The translations under genes were made by a program, and so were the position numbers. Source: Rheinheimera hassiensis (lineage in GTDB: Bacteria > Pseudomonadota > Gammaproteobacteria > Enterobacterales > Alteromonadaceae). Taken from it: 64,000 nt of DNA. The stretch is taken from NCBI RefSeq assembly GCF_022436675.1, contig NZ_JAKUJZ010000002.1, forward strand, positions 312,655 to 376,654, in the 5' to 3' direction. This document shows, piece after piece, positions 21,318-53,126 of this stretch; the stretch's first letter is position 1; every line of letters begins with the position of its first letter. The notes under the pieces were generated by a model. That model saw nothing but the letters and a program-made list of their open reading frames with translations, made no database searches and was not told the DNA's origin.

Positions 21318-22064
21318 ATGCGAGTAATGTTGTTAGCTATTTTGCTGTTGGTGTCCTTTAACAGCATGGCTAAAGACTGCGTTGTACTGCTGCATGGCCT
21401 GGCTCGCAGCGCCGGTGCAATGGAAACTATGCAGCAGGCGCTGGATAACGCTGGCTATCATAGCGTCAATGTTGATTACCCATCGCGTAACTATAGCGTA
21501 GAGGCGCTGGCGCCAATGGCTATTGCACCGGCATTAGCGCAGTGCCGGGCAAAACAAAGCCGTGTTATTCATTTTGTTACCCATTCTATGGGCGGTATTT
21601 TGTTGCGCCAGTATACGCAGCATAACGTTATTGCAGATTTAGGCCGCGTAGTGATGATGGGGCCGCCAAATCAGGGCAGTCAGGTGGTCGACAATTTAAA
21701 AGATGTGCCGGGTTTTGAGGCGTATAACGGGCCGGCCGGTATGCAGCTGGGCACCAGCGAACAAGACATACCCAAACAGCTGGGGCCGGTAAGTTTCGAA
21801 TTGGGTGTTATAGCCGGTACCAGTTCTATCAACCTGCTATTGTCTACGTTTTTGCCCAACCCGGATGATGGTAAGGTGTCGGTGGAGAATACCAAAGTAC
21901 AAGGCATGTGTGCGCTGGTTACGGTGGCGGTATCGCATCCGTTTTTGATGAAACGACAACAGGTTATTGACCAGGTACTACATTTTCTGCGCAGTGGCAG
22001 CTTTTTTGGCGACAACGCCCAGCAGTTTGCCTGCCCGGCGCAGCTATCGCCGGAATTGGCTTAA
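21318..22064 (+). CDS. Secreted alpha/beta-hydrolase (lipase/esterase), copy 1
   Basis: A 248-residue alpha/beta-hydrolase. The signal peptide (about residues 1-18) ends at SMA before KDCVVLLHGLARS, where HGLARS is the oxyanion-hole motif. The nucleophile elbow is THSMGG with Ser90. Asp and His partners should lie in NPDDGKVSVENTK and EVSHPFLM-type segments (here VAVSHPFLM). It resembles the small PGAP1/LipA-like bacterial lipases found in gammaproteobacteria. It should act in the periplasm or outside the cell on an ester substrate not known here. A paralogue lies at 23206-23952, and the central 200 bases of the two genes are almost identical while the flanks have diverged. AAGGAAGG precedes the ATG. 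Confidence 0.85.
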   Translation: MRVMLLAILLLVSFNSMAKDCVVLLHGLARSAGAMETMQQALDNAGYHSVNVDYPSRNYSVEALAPMAIAPALAQCRAKQSRVIHFVTHSMGGILLRQYTQHNVIADLGRVVMMGPPNQGSQVVDNLKDVPGFEAYNGPAGMQLGTSEQDIPKQLGPVSFELGVIAGTSSINLLLSTFLPNPDDGKVSVENTKVQGMCALVTVAVSHPFLMKRQQVIDQVLHFLRSGSFFGDNAQQFACPAQLSPELA

Positions 22065-23205: not shown

Positions 23206-23952
23206 ATGCGAACAATACTGACAGCCGTTTTGCTGCTTATAGCGTTTAACAGCCAGGCTAAAGACTGCGTGGTACTGTTGCATGGTTTGGCGCGCAGCGC
23301 CGGTGCTATGGACACGATGCAGCAGGCGCTGGATGACGCTGGCTACTTTACCGTGAATGTAGATTACCCCTCGCGCAAACATGCCATTGAAGTATTAGCG
23401 TCAATGGTTATTCCACCGGCGTTAGAGCAGTGCCGGGCAAAGCAAAGCCGTGTTATTCATTTTGTTACCCATTCTATGGGCGGTATTTTGCTGCGCCAGT
23501 ATACGCAGCATAACGTTATTGCAGATTTAGGCCGCGTAGTGATGATGGGGCCGCCAAATCAGGGCAGCCAGGTAGTCGACAATTTAAAAGATGTGCCGGG
23601 TTTTGAGGCGTATAACGGCCCGGCCGGTATGCAGCTGGGTACCGGCGCGCACGATATACCCAAACAGCTGGGGCCGGTAAGTTTTGAGCTGGGTGTTATT
23701 GCCGGTACCAGTTCTATCAATCTGATATTGTCAAACTTTCTGCCCAACCCGGATGATGGCAAGGTGTCGGTGGAAAACACCAAAGTGCAAGGCATGTGCG
23801 CGCTGGTTACGGTAGAGGTGTCGCATCCGTTTCTGATGAAAAGACAAAAGGTAATTAGCCAGGTACTGCACTTTTTAACAGTGGGTAAATTTAGCGGCGA
23901 CAATGCTCAACAGTTTGCCTGCCCGGCTCAGTTAAAGCCGAAGCTAAGTTGA
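23206..23952 (+). CDS. Secreted alpha/beta-hydrolase (lipase/esterase), copy 2
   Basis: A 248-residue paralogue of the hydrolase at 21318-22064, with the same length and no gaps. It has a signal peptide (about residues 1-18), HGLARS as oxyanion hole and THSMGG with Ser90 as nucleophile. The stretch 23430-23640 differs from the same part of copy 1 at only a handful of bases, yet residues 58-75 and the C-terminus have changed freely, including the ends of the two proteins. Both copies therefore appear to be under selection, and recent gene conversion is likely. AAGGAAAGG-like sequence precedes the ATG. Substrate unknown. Confidence 0.85.
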   Translation: MRTILTAVLLLIAFNSQAKDCVVLLHGLARSAGAMDTMQQALDDAGYFTVNVDYPSRKHAIEVLASMVIPPALEQCRAKQSRVIHFVTHSMGGILLRQYTQHNVIADLGRVVMMGPPNQGSQVVDNLKDVPGFEAYNGPAGMQLGTGAHDIPKQLGPVSFELGVIAGTSSINLILSNFLPNPDDGKVSVENTKVQGMCALVTVEVSHPFLMKRQKVISQVLHFLTVGKFSGDNAQQFACPAQLKPKLS

Positions 23953-24038: not shown

Positions 24039-24200
24039 ATGACAATAAAACTGCAAGATTACGATGTAGCAGATCACCTGCGTACTCCGGAAGAAATGGC
24101 GGCATATCTTGAAGCGTCTATTGCTGAGTGTGATGGCGATGTCAGCTTTGTTGCCAAAGCGTTGGATGATATTGCGCGAGCGAAATTACAACAGGATTAA
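24039..24200 (+). CDS. Antidote-like N-terminal fragment (53 aa)
   Basis: A 53-residue frame beginning MTIKLQDYDVADHLRTPEEM and ending DDIARAKLQQD. It resembles the N-terminal half of 'probable addiction module antidote' proteins, which start with KLxxYDVADYLKT-like sequence, then YLEAALEE and a DIARA-like stretch before a helix-turn-helix. Here the stop comes just where the DNA-binding part should begin, so it is either a truncated antitoxin or a short derived protein. Only the weak AAGAAC-like sequence precedes the ATG. A 62-residue gene starts 5 bases after the stop, and no toxin of the usual RelE-like type is adjacent. Family link from memory of motifs, not from a search. Confidence 0.55.
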   Translation: MTIKLQDYDVADHLRTPEEMAAYLEASIAECDGDVSFVAKALDDIARAKLQQD

Positions 24201-24205
24201 CTATC

Positions 24206-24394
24206 ATGGCTAAAACACTGCAGCAAATATTGGCAGATGAAAAGCCAAAGGTTGTTGCCTCGGCGATACAGCAGGCAGCTGAAATTCTGCAAAAAATAGA
24301 TCCTGAATTAACGGCATATAAAGGTCAAGCACTGATAGATATCGTCCAAGCCAGACTAACTGATCCGCAGTCGGGTGGTAAAGTTGAGCTGTAG
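24206..24394 (+). CDS. Small protein of unknown function (62 aa)
   Basis: A 62-residue, mostly helical, soluble protein (MAKTLQQILADEKPKVVASA at the start; SGGKVEL at the end). I do not recognise the family. It begins 5 bases after the antidote-like fragment and is followed by a good intrinsic terminator at 24415-24441, so the two form a short two-gene transcript. The gene has GC content closer to the core genome than the AT-rich gene downstream. It could be a partner of the upstream fragment, but nothing in its sequence shows nuclease or other toxin motifs. Confidence 0.6.
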   Translation: MAKTLQQILADEKPKVVASAIQQAAEILQKIDPELTAYKGQALIDIVQARLTDPQSGGKVEL

Positions 24395-24414
24395 GCCACG
24401 CAATCAACCAACGT

Positions 24415-24441
24415 AAGGGCGCATCATTGCGCCCTTATTCT
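24415..24441 (+). terminator. Rho-independent terminator
   Basis: AAGGGCGC (24415-24422) and GCGCCCTT (24429-24436) make a perfect 8-bp stem with a 6-base loop, followed by ATTCTTTAT. It ends the small two-gene unit. Confidence 0.85.
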
Positions 24442-24458
24442 TTATACAAATTAAACAC

Positions 24459-24513
24459 TTGACCAAATTCAGTTTTTCGGTAAATGTAACAGCTAGTTTA
24501 AGGTTATATAACC
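24459..24513 (+). promoter_or_regulatory. Promoter-like repeat plus 12-bp palindrome upstream of coiled-coil gene
   Basis: TTGACC (24459-24464), a 16-base spacer and TAAATG (24481-24486) repeat the arrangement found at 21256-21283 with the same spacing and similar bases in between. A perfect 12-bp palindrome, GGTTATATAACC, follows at 24502-24513. The elements lie 60-135 bases upstream of the AT-rich coiled-coil gene. Confidence 0.4.
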
Positions 24514-24595
24514 TGTTTGCCGATTAGCTATAGTCGCAGGCAAAACGCAAGACTAGACGCCGAAATCGTGCGAAATGAGTAGTCAAGGAGGAATT

Positions 24596-26047
24596 TTGGA
24601 AGATATTGACCTGAAAGGATTGTTTAGCGGTATTGATACTCACAAAATAACGAAGCCACTTGATAATTATTTGGAAAGTTTGAATAGTTTTTTTTCTGAT
24701 TATAATCAGGAAAGTGATCGGTCATTGATGCGTTTCTTTGAGGATTTCAATCCTGATAATTTTGTTGATGACGATATTTCGTTCATGGCAAATGCTTTAA
24801 TTATGGCTAACTATGATGAAAGCGCATTGCGTGGTGAGTGTGTTATTATTTTTTCCGAGCCAGTAATTGTGTCTGATCTGAAGTGTGTCGATGTGTTTAG
24901 AAATGAAAGTGAGGATGCACTAAGGTTAATATCCTATAAAGGGGGGGAAAAGAAGTTTACCACAAAAAGAAGTACTCAATCAGATCGCTCTATAAGAAAT
25001 AGACTTATTACAATCTATATGGTTCATGATGTGGTTTTGGGTATTATTTTACCAAAGCACAGTAACTTTCAATCTGTGAAAATTGTTAGATATCGAACGC
25101 TACACTCTGATTACAAAAAGCTTGAGCATACCCAAAAGGCATTGCTAGATGCTAACGACATTCCACGTATCGAAATTCAAAAGATTGTGAAAAAGCTGGA
25201 TGAAATCAACTCAATAATAAATAACAAACTTGATTCTTTAAATACAATTCAAGGCGATATTCATGCTCTTGAACAAGAAAAGTCTCACGCAGAAAGTAGT
25301 CTTGAGAGTAGTAGAATCGCTTTAGAAAAAGCGCGCAATGATTTAGATAAAACTAGTCGAGATTTCAATAAGTTGGTAAGTTCTGTTGCTGATGAAAATG
25401 ATAAATTAGAAACGGTGCAGGCTAAAGTTAAAGCTGAGACTAGCTTTTTTAAAAAGGAACAAGATAAACTAAAAACACTCCAAGATGAAATAGGTGAGGC
25501 TGATAAATCTCTAACAAAAATTAGAACAGAGCTTGCTGCTGCCAAACGAGAAAAAAACTTAACCAACTTTGATACTTTAGGGCACTCAACAGAAACAGGC
25601 CGACAATTAATCGCTTATTACTGGTTTGCTGGTTCCACCTTTGTAGGTTTGCTGTGTATGACTGTTTATATCTATTGGAGTAGTCAGAATTTTAGCGCAT
25701 CATTTCCGTATTTGTTGCATGTAAGCGGATGGAATATTTTACTGAGTAGGCTTCCACTGGTGGCAGCTACCACTCTTATAATGGGTGGTTTATCCGGTGT
25801 GTTTTTCTATTTAATAAAACATATTGTTTCGCTAAACACTGAGAAAATGACAATGCTTAAGGCTGGTATTCTAGCCGAACAAATAACAAATTCGCTAGAT
25901 TGCAAAGACATGGATGACCAAAAACGATTAGAATTCCAGCGTAACACAAAGATTAAGCTAATCACGCAGGTTTTTTCCAAGAATGAACTTGATATCAACC
26001 AAAGCAATATCATAATTGAGGCACTTAAAGCTCTGAACTCAAAATAG
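24596..26047 (+). CDS. Unrecognised coiled-coil membrane protein, AT-rich
   Basis: About 483 residues. An N-terminal soluble part (about 1-185) is followed by a long, charged coiled coil (about 190-330, rich in Glu, Lys, Leu and Asp, SMC-like in look only), two membrane helices (about 343-365 and 385-410) and a helical C-terminal tail (about 415-483). I see no ATP-binding, nuclease or protease motif. Base composition is clearly more AT-rich than in the flanking genes, and codon use is unlike them, suggesting horizontal transfer. A strong Shine-Dalgarno sequence AAGGAGG (24585-24591) favours a TTG start at 24596; the ATG at 24575 would put that site inside the coding sequence. A single-gene cargo or defence function is possible but unproven. 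Confidence 0.75.
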   Translation: MEDIDLKGLFSGIDTHKITKPLDNYLESLNSFFSDYNQESDRSLMRFFEDFNPDNFVDDDISFMANALIMANYDESALRGECVIIFSEPVIVSDLKCVDVFRNESEDALRLISYKGGEKKFTTKRSTQSDRSIRNRLITIYMVHDVVLGIILPKHSNFQSVKIVRYRTLHSDYKKLEHTQKALLDANDIPRIEIQKIVKKLDEINSIINNKLDSLNTIQGDIHALEQEKSHAESSLESSRIALEKARNDLDKTSRDFNKLVSSVADENDKLETVQAKVKAETSFFKKEQDKLKTLQDEIGEADKSLTKIRTELAAAKREKNLTNFDTLGHSTETGRQLIAYYWFAGSTFVGLLCMTVYIYWSSQNFSASFPYLLHVSGWNILLSRLPLVAATTLIMGGLSGVFFYLIKHIVSLNTEKMTMLKAGILAEQITNSLDCKDMDDQKRLEFQRNTKIKLITQVFSKNELDINQSNIIIEALKALNSK

Positions 26048-26221
26048 TTTTGTTGCACTTTATTTTGCATAAAGTTGGCTTTTTGAATTTTGCTGACAAG
26101 AATTGGTGGTTTATCGGAAGTACGTAAAATTAAGAGCGGACTAAACCTGTCAGCCACCATTCGCCTTTCCCTTTTACTCCTTGTATAATACGCGCCCTTG
26201 ATACACTCTGGTGCTTAATTT

Positions 26222-28552: not shown

Positions 28553-29073
28553 TGCAGCGGCTGTTTTTCAGCCTTAAATTTTCCGCCGCGCAGCAACACC
28601 AGTTGCTGCCGTATCAGCGCCAAGCGCTTGGTTTGTGGCTTGGCGCTAAGGCTGTAGATAACGACAATCTGCATTTAACGCTGTTTTTCTTAGGCCAGGT
28701 TAATACCGGGCAGCAACAGCGGCTGGTTGGTGCAGCGCGGCAAATTAAAGCACCGGCTTTTAGCCTGACACTGGATCATCTGGCCTGTTTTGCTAAACCG
28801 AAAATTCTCTATCTCGCGCCTTCGGCAGTGCCGCCTGAACTGACAAAACTACAACAGCAGGTGGCGGCGTTGTGTGAAGCAGAAGGCTTTAGCGATAGCC
28901 ACGATAATTATCAGCCACATATTACTCTGGCTCGGCATGCAGTTTGTAGTAGTAAGTATTATCAAACTCAGCAACCTGTAATAATTAAGGTTACTGAGTT
29001 TGCATTGTATTGTTCCGACAGTAGCAGAGAACGACTCCGGTATCAGCCTCTAGTAACGTTTAATATGTTATGA
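28552..29073 (+). CDS. thpR: RNA 2',3'-cyclic phosphodiesterase ThpR (2'-5' RNA ligase family)
   Basis: A 173-residue 2H-phosphoesterase. The two catalytic HxTx motifs are visible: HLTLFFLG (about residues 39-46) and HITLARHA (about 122-129). ThpR hydrolyses 2',3'-cyclic phosphates and in vitro ligates tRNA halves through 2'-5' linkages. Length and both motifs match E. coli ThpR. The start overlaps the ygiQ stop by one base, indicating translational coupling. A strong hairpin begins at the stop codon (29072-29102). Confidence 0.9.
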   Translation: MQRLFFSLKFSAAQQHQLLPYQRQALGLWLGAKAVDNDNLHLTLFFLGQVNTGQQQRLVGAARQIKAPAFSLTLDHLACFAKPKILYLAPSAVPPELTKLQQQVAALCEAEGFSDSHDNYQPHITLARHAVCSSKYYQTQQPVIIKVTEFALYCSDSSRERLRYQPLVTFNML

Positions 29074-29102
29074 ACATTAAGGAGCTGCGCTCCTTAATGT
29101 TC
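29072..29102. terminator. Bidirectional terminator hairpin
   Basis: Perfect 14-bp arms GAACATTAAGGAGC (29072-29085) and GCTCCTTAATGTTC (29089-29102) with a 3-base TGC loop. The left arm overlaps the thpR stop. It separates thpR (+) from the convergent secreted-protein gene (-). Confidence 0.8.
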
Positions 29103-29110
29103 AATTGTAT

Positions 29111-29470
29111 TTAGAAACCTGTTTCGAATTGCGCTGTAGCTTGTAGAATTTCATAAGTTCCATCGGTATAGAGAACAGTTGCTTTACCCAGGTGGTAAGA
29201 GTAAGGAGGTATAGCTTTAGTACAGGATGTTGCGCTTGAACTGCAACCTGTTGTGCGTTCAGACCAGATCACAGAAGATATGGTTTTAGTTATGTTTACA
29301 ATTCGCCATGTAGCATTGTTAACTGCACGATCTAAAGTATATTCAAAGCTGGTGCACTCCGAAACCTGCCAAGTGTCGAGTGAATCAGTATCAACCATGC
29401 ACTCCATTTGCGCAGCCATGCTTGAATTGGATGCTAATAATAAAGCCACAGCGGTAAGGGTTTTTTTCAT
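29111..29470 (-). CDS. Small secreted protein of unknown function
   Basis: A 119-residue protein with a clear Sec signal peptide (MKKTLTAVALLLASNSSMAA, cleavage after AA) and a mature part with four cysteines (MEC, SEC, TGC, TSC) that could form two disulfides in the periplasm or outside the cell. I recognise no family. The start at 29470 is chosen for AAGGAA 7 bases upstream; an in-frame extension to 29533 has no such site and would bury the signal peptide. The gene and the 240 bases upstream are AT-rich compared with ygiQ, so it may be a recent acquisition. Confidence 0.65.
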   Translation of the reverse strand: MKKTLTAVALLLASNSSMAAQMECMVDTDSLDTWQVSECTSFEYTLDRAVNNATWRIVNITKTISSVIWSERTTGCSSSATSCTKAIPPYSYHLGKATVLYTDGTYEILQATAQFETGF

Positions 29471-29709
29471 TGTATATTCCTTATTTGTATTTAGTTTTGT
29501 CTCGGTTATTTTGCTTAACGCTGAGTTAGTCAATGATGAAAATACAACAAGGTCAAATGATAAATTTATATTAATTATTTATCATTTTTTTATCTTTAGT
29601 TGTACGGTAAGTAAGAATGTGGCTCCGGCTCTGCCGGAGCGGGCAAGGTAGTAATAGTGTAATATCCGAAGGGTAAATAATATTTATTATAAATAGCTGT
29701 CGTTTGCAG

Positions 29710-30255
29710 TCACTCAGCTGCAGCAATAGTGGTTGCATTGTGTTGGTAGGTGTAAATCAGATCGTCATACAACATGTTATTAATGCTATAAGCTTGTTCA
29801 ATACGTTTACTCAGCACAAAACCACATTTTTCCAACACACGACAAGAGCCTGTATTACCCTCTGTTACTGTGGCCTGTAGCTGGGGTATACCTAATGATA
29901 AAGCAAACTTTTTTGCTGCTAATAATGCTTCTGTGGCATAGCCTTTACCGAAGTGTTCAGGTAAGAACATATAGCCAAATTCGGCATTGCTATGTTTAGC
30001 ATCAGTGATAATAAATGCCATAGTTCCCAGCGGTGTGCCACTTTCTATACAGCAAACAACCATGCATAACCACTGCCTGGGTCTTGCTTGCCAAGCTGGC
30101 AATAAAACCCGGAACTTGGCAGCGATCTCTTCCATTGAAGGCTCATCAAACACATAACGGATAATAACTTGTTCCTGATGCAACCGGACAAATAATGGCC
30201 AGTCTGCAGCGGTAATTTGGCGTAAACGCAGCCGTGGAGTAAGAAATTCAAGCAT
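29710..30255 (-). CDS. GNAT-family N-acetyltransferase (RimJ/RimL-like)
   Basis: A 181-residue acetyltransferase. It starts with LTPRLRLRQITAADWPLF, the standard opening of RimJ/RimL-type (Acetyltransf_3) proteins. The acetyl-CoA-binding segment is FGYMFLPEHFGKGYATEALLAAKKFA (the Q/RxxGxG/A-like loop reads HFGKGYA), and TEGNTGSCRVLEKCGFVLSKR is the conserved C-terminal helix and strand. The acceptor could be a ribosomal protein N-terminus or a small molecule; this cannot be read. The gene is monocistronic as far as visible. Confidence 0.87.
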   Translation of the reverse strand: MLEFLTPRLRLRQITAADWPLFVRLHQEQVIIRYVFDEPSMEEIAAKFRVLLPAWQARPRQWLCMVVCCIESGTPLGTMAFIITDAKHSNAEFGYMFLPEHFGKGYATEALLAAKKFALSLGIPQLQATVTEGNTGSCRVLEKCGFVLSKRIEQAYSINNMLYDDLIYTYQHNATTIAAAE

Positions 30256-50982: not shown

Positions 50983-51594
50983 TTAAAGGCTCTCAATATT
51001 TTTTGCGTCTTCATCTATCAGCCGTTGCAACTCTTCATCTGAGAATACTGCTGTGCCAGAGTGGGTAAATCGACATTTTGATGAAAATGCGGGTGCAATG
51101 TCTGCCAGTTCAGGATTTTCCAGATACTTAAGTTGTTCTGTTTTGGTGGCGGTGGCTAATTCGCATTGCATATCACTGAGTATTAGATCGAGGCTCTTAT
51201 AATTCAGGTGATTAAGGTTCGCGATACGAAAGACCAAATCTTGCTCATCTTTGCTTGGATAATCTGTAACATACAGCTCCATTGATACGCTGACATCAAA
51301 TAAGACACGGCGAACTTTTTTGGTTTTCTGCGGGAAATGAAAACGTCCGTTGTCATCAGTACTTGTGCTGTCGTAACGTTCTTCACCTTCATAGTAAGAT
51401 CTGCGTTTAATTTCCCTGTTTACCACAGGCTTGCCTTGCTCAGTCACTACACCATTTATTTCCGGTGACCATTTAATTTCTGTTCGTTTTAACCAATCAA
51501 ACACACCTGCCTCCACGTTTGTTGCTAACACAGAAAGTACCAGCGCTACGCCAGCGGCCATCGCCTTGTTGCAAAGAGGCTGCCATCCAAGCAT
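50983..51594 (-). CDS. Secreted immunity-like paralogue 1 (two conserved Cys)
   Basis: A 203-residue protein with a Sec signal peptide (about residues 1-29, ending VEA before GVFDWLK). The mature part has a transthyretin/CarboxypepD_reg-like beta region (EINGVVTEQGKPV through DDNGRFHFP) and two cysteines (SDMQC and SSKC) shared by all three copies, likely to form a disulfide in the periplasm. It looks like DUF6795-type proteins, which I recall beside type VI effector genes. It precedes the lipase by 27 bases in the same orientation, as an immunity gene would. The Shine-Dalgarno AGGA is 8 bases from the ATG. Confidence 0.78.
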   Translation of the reverse strand: MLGWQPLCNKAMAAGVALVLSVLATNVEAGVFDWLKRTEIKWSPEINGVVTEQGKPVVNREIKRRSYYEGEERYDSTSTDDNGRFHFPQKTKKVRRVLFDVSVSMELYVTDYPSKDEQDLVFRIANLNHLNYKSLDLILSDMQCELATATKTEQLKYLENPELADIAPAFSSKCRFTHSGTAVFSDEELQRLIDEDAKNIESL

Positions 51595-51617
51595 TACTGC
51601 AGTCCTGTTGTTTATTT
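51459..51617. repeat. Homogenised 5' module, copy 1
   Basis: About 155 bases covering the ribosome-binding site, signal peptide and first mature residues of paralogue 1. Nearly identical copies occur at 52182-52338 and 52991-53146, while the rest of the three genes has diverged strongly. Confidence 0.85.
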
Positions 51618-51754
51618 GTGGCTAATATTTTAGCTATTTACTAAATGATGTCAAACTTGTTTTTTTAAAGTTAATTTTTGACAATGTATCTGACTTTTTG
51701 GAGGAACTGTTTTTCTTGATTATCTATGATCTGTTCAAGCTCCAAGCGTTGTTG

Positions 51755-52318
51755 CTATATTTCTTCAGCTGAGTACAAGGCAATCTCTGCGTGAGCGAAG
51801 GTGCACTTAGAGCGAATGTTAGGGGCAGAATTGCCGGGGATTTCGAGGTTTTTTAACTCATCTACTTTTGCTTCAGCTGTCAGATCACAACGTATATCAG
51901 ATGTAACCAAGTCAAGACTTCTGTAATCCAGATCATTCAAAAAGCTAACATCAAAAATCATGTCCTCTTCACCAAATTTAGGAAAGTCCACAACATAAAG
52001 TTCCAACGCTATGCTGACATCAAATAGGACGCGGCGTACCTTAAGCGTTTGTTTGGAGAAGTAAAAATGACCACTGTCATCTGTTGTCGCGCTGTCGTAG
52101 CGCTCTTTGCCATCATAATAAAGGCGGCGTTTGACCTCTTTATTCGCAACCGGTTTACCGTGTTCGGCAATAACACCATGTATTTCCGGTGACCACTGAA
52201 TTTCTGTTCGTTTTAACCAATCAAACACACCTGCCTCCACGTTTGTTGCTAACACAGAAAGTACCAGCGCTACGCCAGCGGCCATCGCCTTGTTGCAAAG
52301 AGGCTGCCATCCAAGCAT
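51755..52318 (-). pseudogene. Secreted immunity-like paralogue 2, possible C-terminal nonsense mutation
   Basis: A 187-residue paralogue with the same signal peptide, beta domain and two cysteines (SDIRC and RSKC) as its neighbours. It stops at an amber codon (51755-51757) after SAEEI. Read past the TAG, the frame continues QQRLELEQIIDNQEKQ to a TAA at 51671-51673, similar to EEQRLERERELDEQD in paralogue 3, so the homology runs through the stop. The stop is therefore probably a secondary nonsense change that removed a charged helical tail of 27 residues. The folded beta domain is intact, so it may still work; whether it is functional cannot be read. No effector gene follows this copy. Confidence 0.65.
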
Positions 52319-52338
52319 TACTACAATCCTGTTATTTA
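52182..52338. repeat. Homogenised 5' module, copy 2
   Basis: Second copy of the module at 51459-51617; matches copy 1 almost base for base over the signal-peptide region. Confidence 0.85.
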
Positions 52339-52413
52339 TTTGATGGCCGATATTCTAGTGTTTTACTTAATGATGTCAATTATGTTTTTTAAATGTAAAA
52401 AAGTCACCAAATC

Positions 52414-52485
52414 TTATCTTCTATCTTGAGCTTCATAAGGTTCTCTGGCTAACCAAACTGCTATTCTTGGTGTTAATGTATTCAT
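52414..52485 (-). pseudogene. Remnant of a second class-3 lipase gene (5' end only)
   Basis: Read on the minus strand from an ATG at 52485, the frame gives MNTLTPRIAVWLAREPYEA followed by QDRR and a TAA. The first 21 residues match the lipase at 49795-50955 (MKTITPKTAVWLARAPYEAQD) at 16 positions. It is cut after 23 codons. The ATG overlaps the stop of paralogue 3 as ATGA (52482-52485), the coupling expected of an intact immunity-effector operon, so the lost gene was once translated together with paralogue 3. The remaining lipase sequence is absent; the next DNA is the upstream region of paralogue 2. It is too short for most gene finders. Confidence 0.85.
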
Positions 52486-53126
52486 GATTTACTTTCCTTG
52501 TTTTGTTCATTAAGAATACGATCCTGTTCATCAAGTTCTCGCTCACGCTCGAGGCGTTGTTCTTCTAGCTCTTCATCTGAATACACTGCAATACTGGCAT
52601 GAGTGAAGGTACACTTTGCGCCAAACCAAGGTGCTGCGCCCTCGGGTGTTTCTAAGTTTCTAAGGCTAAAATTCTTTTCTTCTGCGGTCAGTTCACACTG
52701 CATATCTGACATCAATAAATTTAGCGCTTTGCCATCCAGTCGGTTACCCCAGCGGATATCAAAAAAACGGTTTTGTTCACCTGCAATGGGATGATCAGAC
52801 ACGGATAAAAATAACCCTATGCTGTAGTCAAATAAAACCCGACGTGTTCTTAATGTTTTGCGTGGGAAACTAAAGCGACCTTCATTATCGGTTACTGTAC
52901 TGTCGTTAAATTCGTCATCTTCGTAGTAGAGTTCCCGTACTACTTTTAAACCGGAAACTGGTGTGCCATTTTCCGTAATGATCCCGCGTATTTCAGGTGA
53001 CCATTGGATTTCTGTTCCTTTTAACCAATCAAACACACCTGCCTCCACGTTTGTTGCTAAAACAGAAAGTACCAGCGCTACGCCAGCGGCCATCGCCTTG
53101 TTGCAAAGAGGCTGCCATCCAAGCAT
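52482..53126 (-). CDS. Secreted immunity-like paralogue 3 (two conserved Cys)
   Basis: A 214-residue paralogue with the shared signal peptide (ending VEA), beta region (EIRGIITENGTPVSG through DNEGRFSFP) and cysteines (SDMQC and GAKC). It has a C-terminal charged helical tail (EEQRLERERELDEQDRILNE). The stop overlaps the ATG of the lipase remnant by 4 bases. That places an effector gene originally right after it. Low identity to paralogue 1 outside the 5' module suggests it protected against a variant effector. It is first in the array and carries its own upstream AT-rich promoter-like region. Confidence 0.78.
   Translation of the reverse strand: MLGWQPLCNKAMAAGVALVLSVLATNVEAGVFDWLKGTEIQWSPEIRGIITENGTPVSGLKVVRELYYEDDEFNDSTVTDNEGRFSFPRKTLRTRRVLFDYSIGLFLSVSDHPIAGEQNRFFDIRWGNRLDGKALNLLMSDMQCELTAEEKNFSLRNLETPEGAAPWFGAKCTFTHASIAVYSDEELEEQRLERERELDEQDRILNEQNKESKS

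Follow-up and report, generated by a model that had tools for sequence, protein, structure and literature searches.

What is encoded by the AT-rich gene that stands just before ygiQ in Rheinheimera hassiensis, and how did it come to be there? The question arises from a 64,000-nucleotide stretch of this genome, referred to here as the window. The gene is a 490-residue open reading frame on the forward strand, running from an ATG at 24575 to 26047. The original prediction had placed its start at a TTG at 24596, behind AAGGAGG, and this was not borne out, as the homologues align from ATG 24575, 21 bases upstream. Those of Psychrosphaera, Shewanella olleyana, Vibrio tasmaniensis and V. comitans have starts in register with this ATG (MINQRED, MSNQREN, MSNRREG and MESKFED, respectively), so that AAGGAGG falls inside codons 4–6, and in the first three the DNA upstream of the TTG is alike as well. 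The TTG start is probably wrong, judging from these alignments. Since ATG 24575 has no clear Shine-Dalgarno sequence upstream, internal initiation at the TTG is still conceivable. Promoter-like matches at the locus are no commoner than in shuffled sequences (8 vs 6.5), and the terminator count is no higher than in shuffles (2 vs 1.7).

The DNA of the gene is foreign-looking in both GC content and codon use. As had been claimed, it is AT-rich relative to its flanks, with GC of 0.395 and 0.356 in 1-kb windows and of 0.495 and 0.501 in the adjoining ones. The proposed check of GC and codon usage, run against 27 non-overlapping window open reading frames of at least 250 residues each, gave this gene the lowest GC (0.353, with a GC3 of 0.308) and the most deviant codons (synonymous-codon distance 0.257, median 0.133). 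Further AT-rich stretches of the window are found at 29001–30000 (GC 0.387) and 51001–53000 (GC 0.407 and 0.423). The first contains a gene for a small protein, apparently with a signal peptide, at 29111–29533 on the reverse strand; R. lutimaris has it too (L012 13965–14378).

The protein has the parts that the original prediction had given it, namely a soluble head, a coiled coil of about 140 residues, two membrane helices and a helical tail:

24575–26047, forward strand: whole gene for a head, coiled-coil and two-helix membrane protein (open reading frame; start from homologues)
24683–25102, forward strand: head, residues 37–176, a predicted discoidin-like beta-sandwich (AlphaFold and structure comparison)
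25112–25534, forward strand: coiled-coil stalk, residues 180–320 (model helix and 3.50-residue period)
25609–25684, forward strand: first membrane helix (TM1), about residues 346–370 (marginal hydrophobicity; model helix 335–374)
25736–25825, forward strand: second membrane helix (TM2), about residues 388–417 (hydrophobicity; model helix 385–440; conservation)
25745–25756, forward strand: S391-R392-L393-P394 motif at the start of TM2 (R and P invariant in alignments)
25826–26044, forward strand: charged helical tail, predicted cytosolic (model, conservation and hydrophobicity)

The stalk is the most regular of these parts. Hydrophobic positions in residues 180–325 recur with a 3.50-residue period at a power of 23.3, compared with a shuffle mean of 8.7 and equalled by none of 2000 shuffles, and the AlphaFold model draws a single helix across residues 180–320. 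In a Kyte-Doolittle scan TM2 (about 388–417) is clear and TM1 (about 345–370) marginal, with a peak of 1.45; both stretches are helical in the model, at low confidence (pLDDT about 52–65). The mean pLDDT is 72 for the whole protein and 77 for the head alone, which is beta-rich. VIA-align compared the head fold mostly with discoidin, F5/8C, CBM32-type and similar jelly rolls, with Z up to 6.4 for the whole model and 6.3 for the isolated head; values below 8 may reflect merely a common arrangement, and a Z of about 6 thus makes a discoidin-like, eight-stranded jelly-roll head just suggestive. The best Foldseek E-value for the predicted head was 0.022, with SUN1 and SUN2 chains among the matches. 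Since the hydrophobicity scan finds no N-terminal membrane helix and inspection by eye no signal peptide, the head and stalk are predicted to be cytosolic.

Conservation is distributed very unevenly along this architecture. Averaged over all pairs of ten sequences, identity is lowest in the coil (26%) and the head (36%), intermediate in the linker with TM1 (45%), and highest in the loop with TM2 (residues 376–425; 68%) and the tail (64%). Arg392 and Pro394 do not vary in either of two alignments, one of 9 rows and one of 10. Across the family the motif follows the consensus [ST]R[LI]P, the exception being SRAP in G887. A divergent head and coil joined to a conserved loop, TM2 and tail are as expected of a variable sensor with a constant effector, and the divergence of the head could be neutral instead. 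With synonymous sites close to saturation, no case is made for positive selection on the head. No catalytic motif had been recognised in the protein, and none was found here either.

The protein had been called unrecognised, and HMM searches with the whole sequence are in keeping with this. In Pfam, PADLOC, NCBIfam and PHROGs the coiled coil was the sole region matched, the rest being sub-threshold noise. Pfam gave nothing above cut-off for the isolated heads of eight homologues and two C-terminal modules; in NCBIfam at 1e-6, seven of eight further homologues were unmatched and the eighth matched SMC-type coils only. A PDB sequence search up to E 10 returned no relative of the head, and the best 60 of 161 PDB sequence matches of the whole protein were almost all coils. 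The whole model had no match below E 0.001 in a viral fold library. Matches to SMC, crescentin, LmuB, JetC, ZorA, tape-measure and haemagglutinin proteins cover the coil only and were rejected as composition. Membership of the SMC type (SMC, LmuB, JetC) fails, as scores reach at most 28.6 bits against cut-offs of hundreds and are confined to the coil; moreover, Pfam detects no ATPase head flanking it. The ZorA matches in PADLOC (E 0.0063) and in NCBIfam as ZorA_1 (E 0.013) are limited to residues 181–322, and membership fails here too, as the membrane helices are C-terminal to the coil, where ZorA has a MotA/ExbB/TolQ-type membrane domain N-terminal to it, and Pfam gives no MotA or ExbB match. 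No named family is assigned, because both of these tests fail and the discoidin scores are weak.

In searches of the open-licence PMC literature, none of the titles and abstracts listed dealt with this protein family. A figure legend of the DefensePredictor paper (PMC13092281), one part of that source, carries the abbreviation TM and CC.

The family is real but rare, and spans several classes or orders of one phylum. It comprises 21 loci found, two of them broken (an N-terminal remnant in G153, L006, and the G845 copy, L060), and 19 other apparently intact or full-length-type loci were counted besides the window gene. Loci found twice were counted once (L048 = L002, L049 = L003, L055 = L004, L020 = L054). 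L008 (G039) was removed, because only the coil of a protein resembling, by eye, a chemotaxis receptor had matched. Identity to the window protein is 67% in R. lutimaris, 60% in Psychrosphaera, 53% in Shewanella olleyana, 52% in V. tasmaniensis, 49% in V. comitans, 48% in S. glacialipiscicola (start codon ambiguous), 33% in V. mediterranei, 32% in G212, about 30% in Moritella G184 and its congener G201, and 28% in Shewanella MBTL60. More distant members occur in G017, G045, a filamentous phage of V. cyclitrophicus, G580, G1083, G887 and G1124.

Its distribution is patchy at every level, all genome counts including the window's own genome. A single-protein search hit 8 of 197 related genomes (counting the false L008 and the G153 remnant) and a profile search 7 of 197 (one being that remnant). 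The remnant is also one of the 5 hits in 394 genomes at order level; there were 3 in 369 at class level and 6 in 349 at phylum level, each including one broken copy. With a C-terminal profile, 4 of the 394 genomes of the order matched. Within the genus, matches were confined to the window's genome, G027 and G017 (a distant copy, placed elsewhere) among 31 genomes. Single-protein scans of genome contigs, viral contigs and plasmids gave no match, and a scan of phage records found the V. cyclitrophicus phage as the only carrier. Gene GC is at or below flank GC in all 19 homologous loci checked; a base composition equal to the surroundings, which would have weakened the case for a foreign gene, holds for L051 alone, the other loci lying below their flanks.

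The slot before ygiQ in Rheinheimera has sharply defined sides, and the toxin-antitoxin debris reported beside the gene was traced to two antitoxin-like stubs:

24039–24200, forward strand: HI1420-type antitoxin stub of 53 residues (dnstrm_HI1420, TIGR02684, E 9.1e-9, below cut-off)
24206–24394, forward strand: stub like the N-terminus of an HTH antitoxin (by eye, against L047 8851–9153)
24406–24503, forward strand: 98-bp repeat, left side of the slot (repeat search of the genome and congeners)
26159–26221, forward strand: conserved right side of the slot, from ATTCGCC to ygiQ (junction alignment)

The HI1420-type antitoxin is 101 residues long in R. lutimaris (L012), compared with the 53-residue stub in the window, and L047 8851–9153 encodes a 100-residue HTH antitoxin that matches HTH_37 and HTH_3. 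Aligning the junctions in the window, in R. lutimaris and in 17 congeners shows a sharp boundary at ATTCGCC, about 63 bp before ygiQ; the DNA to its left varies between genomes and is alike only among those with the same slot gene. The 98-bp repeat contains a terminator-like hairpin at 24413–24438. At E ≤ 0.01 it is found once in the window's genome, and it is at least partly matched in 17 of 20 congeners. Of the 24 congener matches that cover 75 positions or more, 23 are no further than 8 kb from ygiQ and the remaining one (G012) is on another contig; shorter partial matches occur elsewhere in several congener genomes.

The head, stalk and membrane gene fills the slot in the window and in R. 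lutimaris. Twenty congeneric loci were taken, and 19 were left once L035, cut by a contig end, was dropped. The slot holds a 217-residue membrane-type protein in three of them, a RES-type protein in three (Pfam on one copy, the others being 91–96% alike), a 183-residue protein in two and a DUF2806 protein with a 226-residue protein in one; it is empty in two (L037, L046), and eight have other genes without a long repeat beside ygiQ. The AT-rich occupants, unrelated to the gene studied here, are candidate single-gene defence systems too and are exemplified by the following:

L028 9217–9870: 217-residue slot protein, AT-rich, no Pfam match
L036 9307–9858: 183-residue slot protein, AT-rich, no Pfam match
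L033 8973–9866: RES-domain slot protein, AT-rich
L040 8174–9838: DUF2806 and 226-residue slot protein, AT-rich

Throughout this ygiQ hotspot (window 24406–26221; L028–L047), variable genes, antitoxin genes and alpha/beta hydrolases are set apart by the locus-specific repeat, which consists of a terminator-like hairpin and a conserved tail and can occur several times in one genome. The hotspot resembles a cassette array for which no integrase is known. The repeats raised the possibility of a chromosomal integron; by eye they do not resemble attC, and in G000, G027 and G017 no PF00589 integrase was found near them. In the window, two very similar alpha/beta-hydrolase genes of 248 residues each (21318–22064 and 23206–23952) flank two other genes, and in congeners the same hydrolase is single or at other positions near the slot.

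Comparison with R. lutimaris further reveals a mosaic within the gene. Nucleotide identity is 57–69% in the head and 88–92% over residues 361–490, and the match from inside the gene through ygiQ stands at 82%, below that of residues 361–490. At the level of sequence this is most simply explained by recombination, and it hints that heads may be swapped by recombination onto a constant membrane module.

The original prediction had also proposed a search for defence islands around homologues. Twenty neighbourhoods were read, with L016 (G153) left out, and ten of them hold a phage, recombinase or defence gene. In V. mediterranei the gene belongs to a filamentous prophage beside dusA, together with an integrase, GPA, a pI/Zot-family protein and DUF2726; the filamentous phage of V. 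cyclitrophicus carries DUF2726 as well. In G212 its neighbours are a fragment of an integrase and the P2 coat gene of a tailless phage, and in G045, where smpB is nearby, it is overlapped by an integrase. Moritella G184 shows an integrase, a resolvase and a HEPN protein, which is near-identical by eye to that of Moritella G201, and Shewanella MBTL60 an integrase and a resolvase near the gene. In V. tasmaniensis a DRT4 reverse transcriptase lies 132 bp downstream (E 4e-235), with a resolvase-type recombinase also in the neighbourhood. In G580 the gene sits within an AlwI restriction-modification operon with 4-nt overlaps to both neighbours, and in G1083 a resolvase and a DUF6538 protein are nearby.

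Five further neighbourhoods give weak hints: a Schlafen AlbA_2 protein and a ParA-like ATPase in G1124 (L069), PemK in Psychrosphaera, HTH-IrrE in G017, and antitoxin genes or stubs in the window and R. lutimaris. The other five, those of S. olleyana, V. comitans, S. glacialipiscicola, G887 and the broken G845 copy, showed neither a mobile nor a defence gene; two of these five and the V. tasmaniensis neighbourhood are only partial, owing to contig ends or cut loci. A housekeeping context, which would have spoken against the original prediction, applies to individual loci only, namely four intact copies (L050, L052, L053, L068) that have ordinary genes around them. A PF00589 integrase within 10 kb occurs in 3 of 13 genomes (G212, G045, G184) against 0.54 expected (P 0.014), a modest enrichment from a control that covers integrases only. 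Neighbours differ among the 20 neighbourhoods, and no constant partner gene was met by eye; likewise, in neighbouring open reading frames read by eye, no adjacent nucleotide cyclase of a CBASS- or Pycsar-type context was noticed.

Patchy distribution, low GC and phage or defence neighbours bear out the notion of a foreign single-gene island with defence-like architecture. Taken together, mobility, rarity, composition and neighbours therefore point to a single-gene accessory system, most likely an anti-phage one, and we consider a putative defence function, drawn from genomic context, to be probable. If defence is granted, a route from sensor to membrane would be the likelier way of acting. The domains (head, coil, two membrane helices and tail), their conservation pattern and the mobile history of the gene are observed or directly predicted. 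Our tentative proposal joining these is that prophages and islands have spread a one-gene anti-phage protein whose cytosolic sensor head would drive a membrane effector.

Topology, oligomerisation, trigger and membrane damage in this proposal are what we infer. Head and stalk would lie in the cytosol, the stalk being about 21 nm long if fully helical, and the protein may oligomerise through its coiled coil. Binding of something made or delivered during infection would change the head, and the stalk might relay this change to the conserved membrane module. The helices of this module, which carry [ST]R[LI]P, could then make the inner membrane leak or disable it in some other way, ending the infection. 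A broader reading is possible but doubtful: undescribed one-gene immune receptors, common to filamentous phages, tailless phages and chromosomal islands, whose exchangeable discoidin-like heads, cytosolic and borne on a coiled-coil stalk, signal to one conserved membrane module which shuts down or kills the infected cell.

Other explanations have to be weighed against the same facts. Carriage by two filamentous phages and at a tailless-phage locus would also suit superinfection exclusion, in which a prophage constitutively makes an inner-membrane protein that keeps the DNA of related phages out or stops their assembly, without any triggered effector, and small prophages benefit from excluding relatives. 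This is nevertheless rather unlikely, as a 140-residue cytosolic stalk and a head exceed the needs of a membrane blocker and copies beside DRT4 and in a restriction operon stand away from phages. The adjoining integrases, phage genes and ParA-like ATPase (L069) would also agree with a housekeeping factor of prophages or plasmids, for instance one that anchors replication, partition or phage release to the membrane and has been left behind in chromosomes. Such a factor is unlikely, given carriers as unrelated as filamentous phages, tailless phages and integrase-resolvase islands, their differing neighbours and the many copies with no phage gene nearby.

A constant partner gene is missing for a stand-alone toxin or an addictive element of toxin-antitoxin type, selfishly maintained, and the antitoxin remnants come from families that have toxins of their own, and they vary in the slot; the idea is very unlikely, despite the stubs in the window, PemK in Psychrosphaera and HTH-IrrE in G017. 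It is highly improbable that the gene encodes an ordinary envelope or cell-organisation protein. In favour of this are the four intact copies (L050, L052, L053, L068) that have ordinary genes on both sides and for which no mobile gene was noticed. However, it is already in conflict with the distribution, as matches in the 31 genomes of the genus are restricted to the window's genome, G027 and G017, the slot is empty in two congeners, and GC does not exceed that of the flanks in any of 19 loci.

Several known proteins resemble the proposed anti-phage receptor in part. ZorA of Zorya is a membrane protein whose long cytosolic helical tail signals infection; the likeness lies in the combination of a membrane protein and a long cytosolic helix, whereas the window protein has its membrane helices after the coil, on the C-terminal side. 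In SUN proteins a discoidin-type head is likewise combined with a coiled coil and a membrane helix. Discoidin, F5/8C and SUN-domain proteins are thus like the predicted head in topology, but there is no match in head sequence and structural scores are weak; the window protein is bacterial, and its head is predicted to be cytosolic. RexB-type abortive-infection proteins depolarise the membrane, and here the likeness is limited to the proposed end effect on the inner membrane, with no known resemblance in sequence or domains.

Should the protein prove defensive, its head, stalk and membrane design would make it a bacterial receptor that is easy to dissect, and more one-gene systems could be sought in the slot before ygiQ in Rheinheimera. 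The plan is simple and testable, with an invariant Arg-Pro motif and no model beyond the coil in four libraries. Single-gene defences on small prophages make up a large unannotated reservoir.

According to the part of PMC11630473 drawn on here, filamentous and tailless Vibrio prophages have one variable accessory locus close to the border of the prophage, in which defence genes are enriched and most genes are unannotated. These loci share the kinds of carrier with the head, stalk and membrane gene, and the family is not named in that part of its account of accessory loci. The same text gives dusA as a site of tailless prophages and states that filamentous phages do not as a rule have integrases; the V. 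mediterranei prophage is filamentous, yet has an integrase and lies beside dusA. In the portion of PMC11341870 used, KKP is described as a defence module on Pf filamentous prophages, consisting of kinases and a phosphatase. It is likewise filamentous-prophage cargo and differs in these enzymes, and a sequence relation to the window protein is not expected.

Both filamentous carriers hold a DUF2726 gene less than 1 kb downstream or upstream of the gene (L009 9179–9820; L054 10244–10789). A partnership with DUF2726 is possible, the other loci being without it by eye. In the part of PMC3710099 consulted, DUF2726 is a DNase domain of restriction-endonuclease fold, and a HEPN/Toprim N-terminal domain occurs in defence-like fusions. 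In the V. mediterranei prophage (L054 6993–17633) a tyrosine integrase lies beside dusA, and the integrase fragment of G212 (L018 8736–9143) is nearly identical to it by eye, as if integrase and cargo had moved between filamentous and tailless phages.
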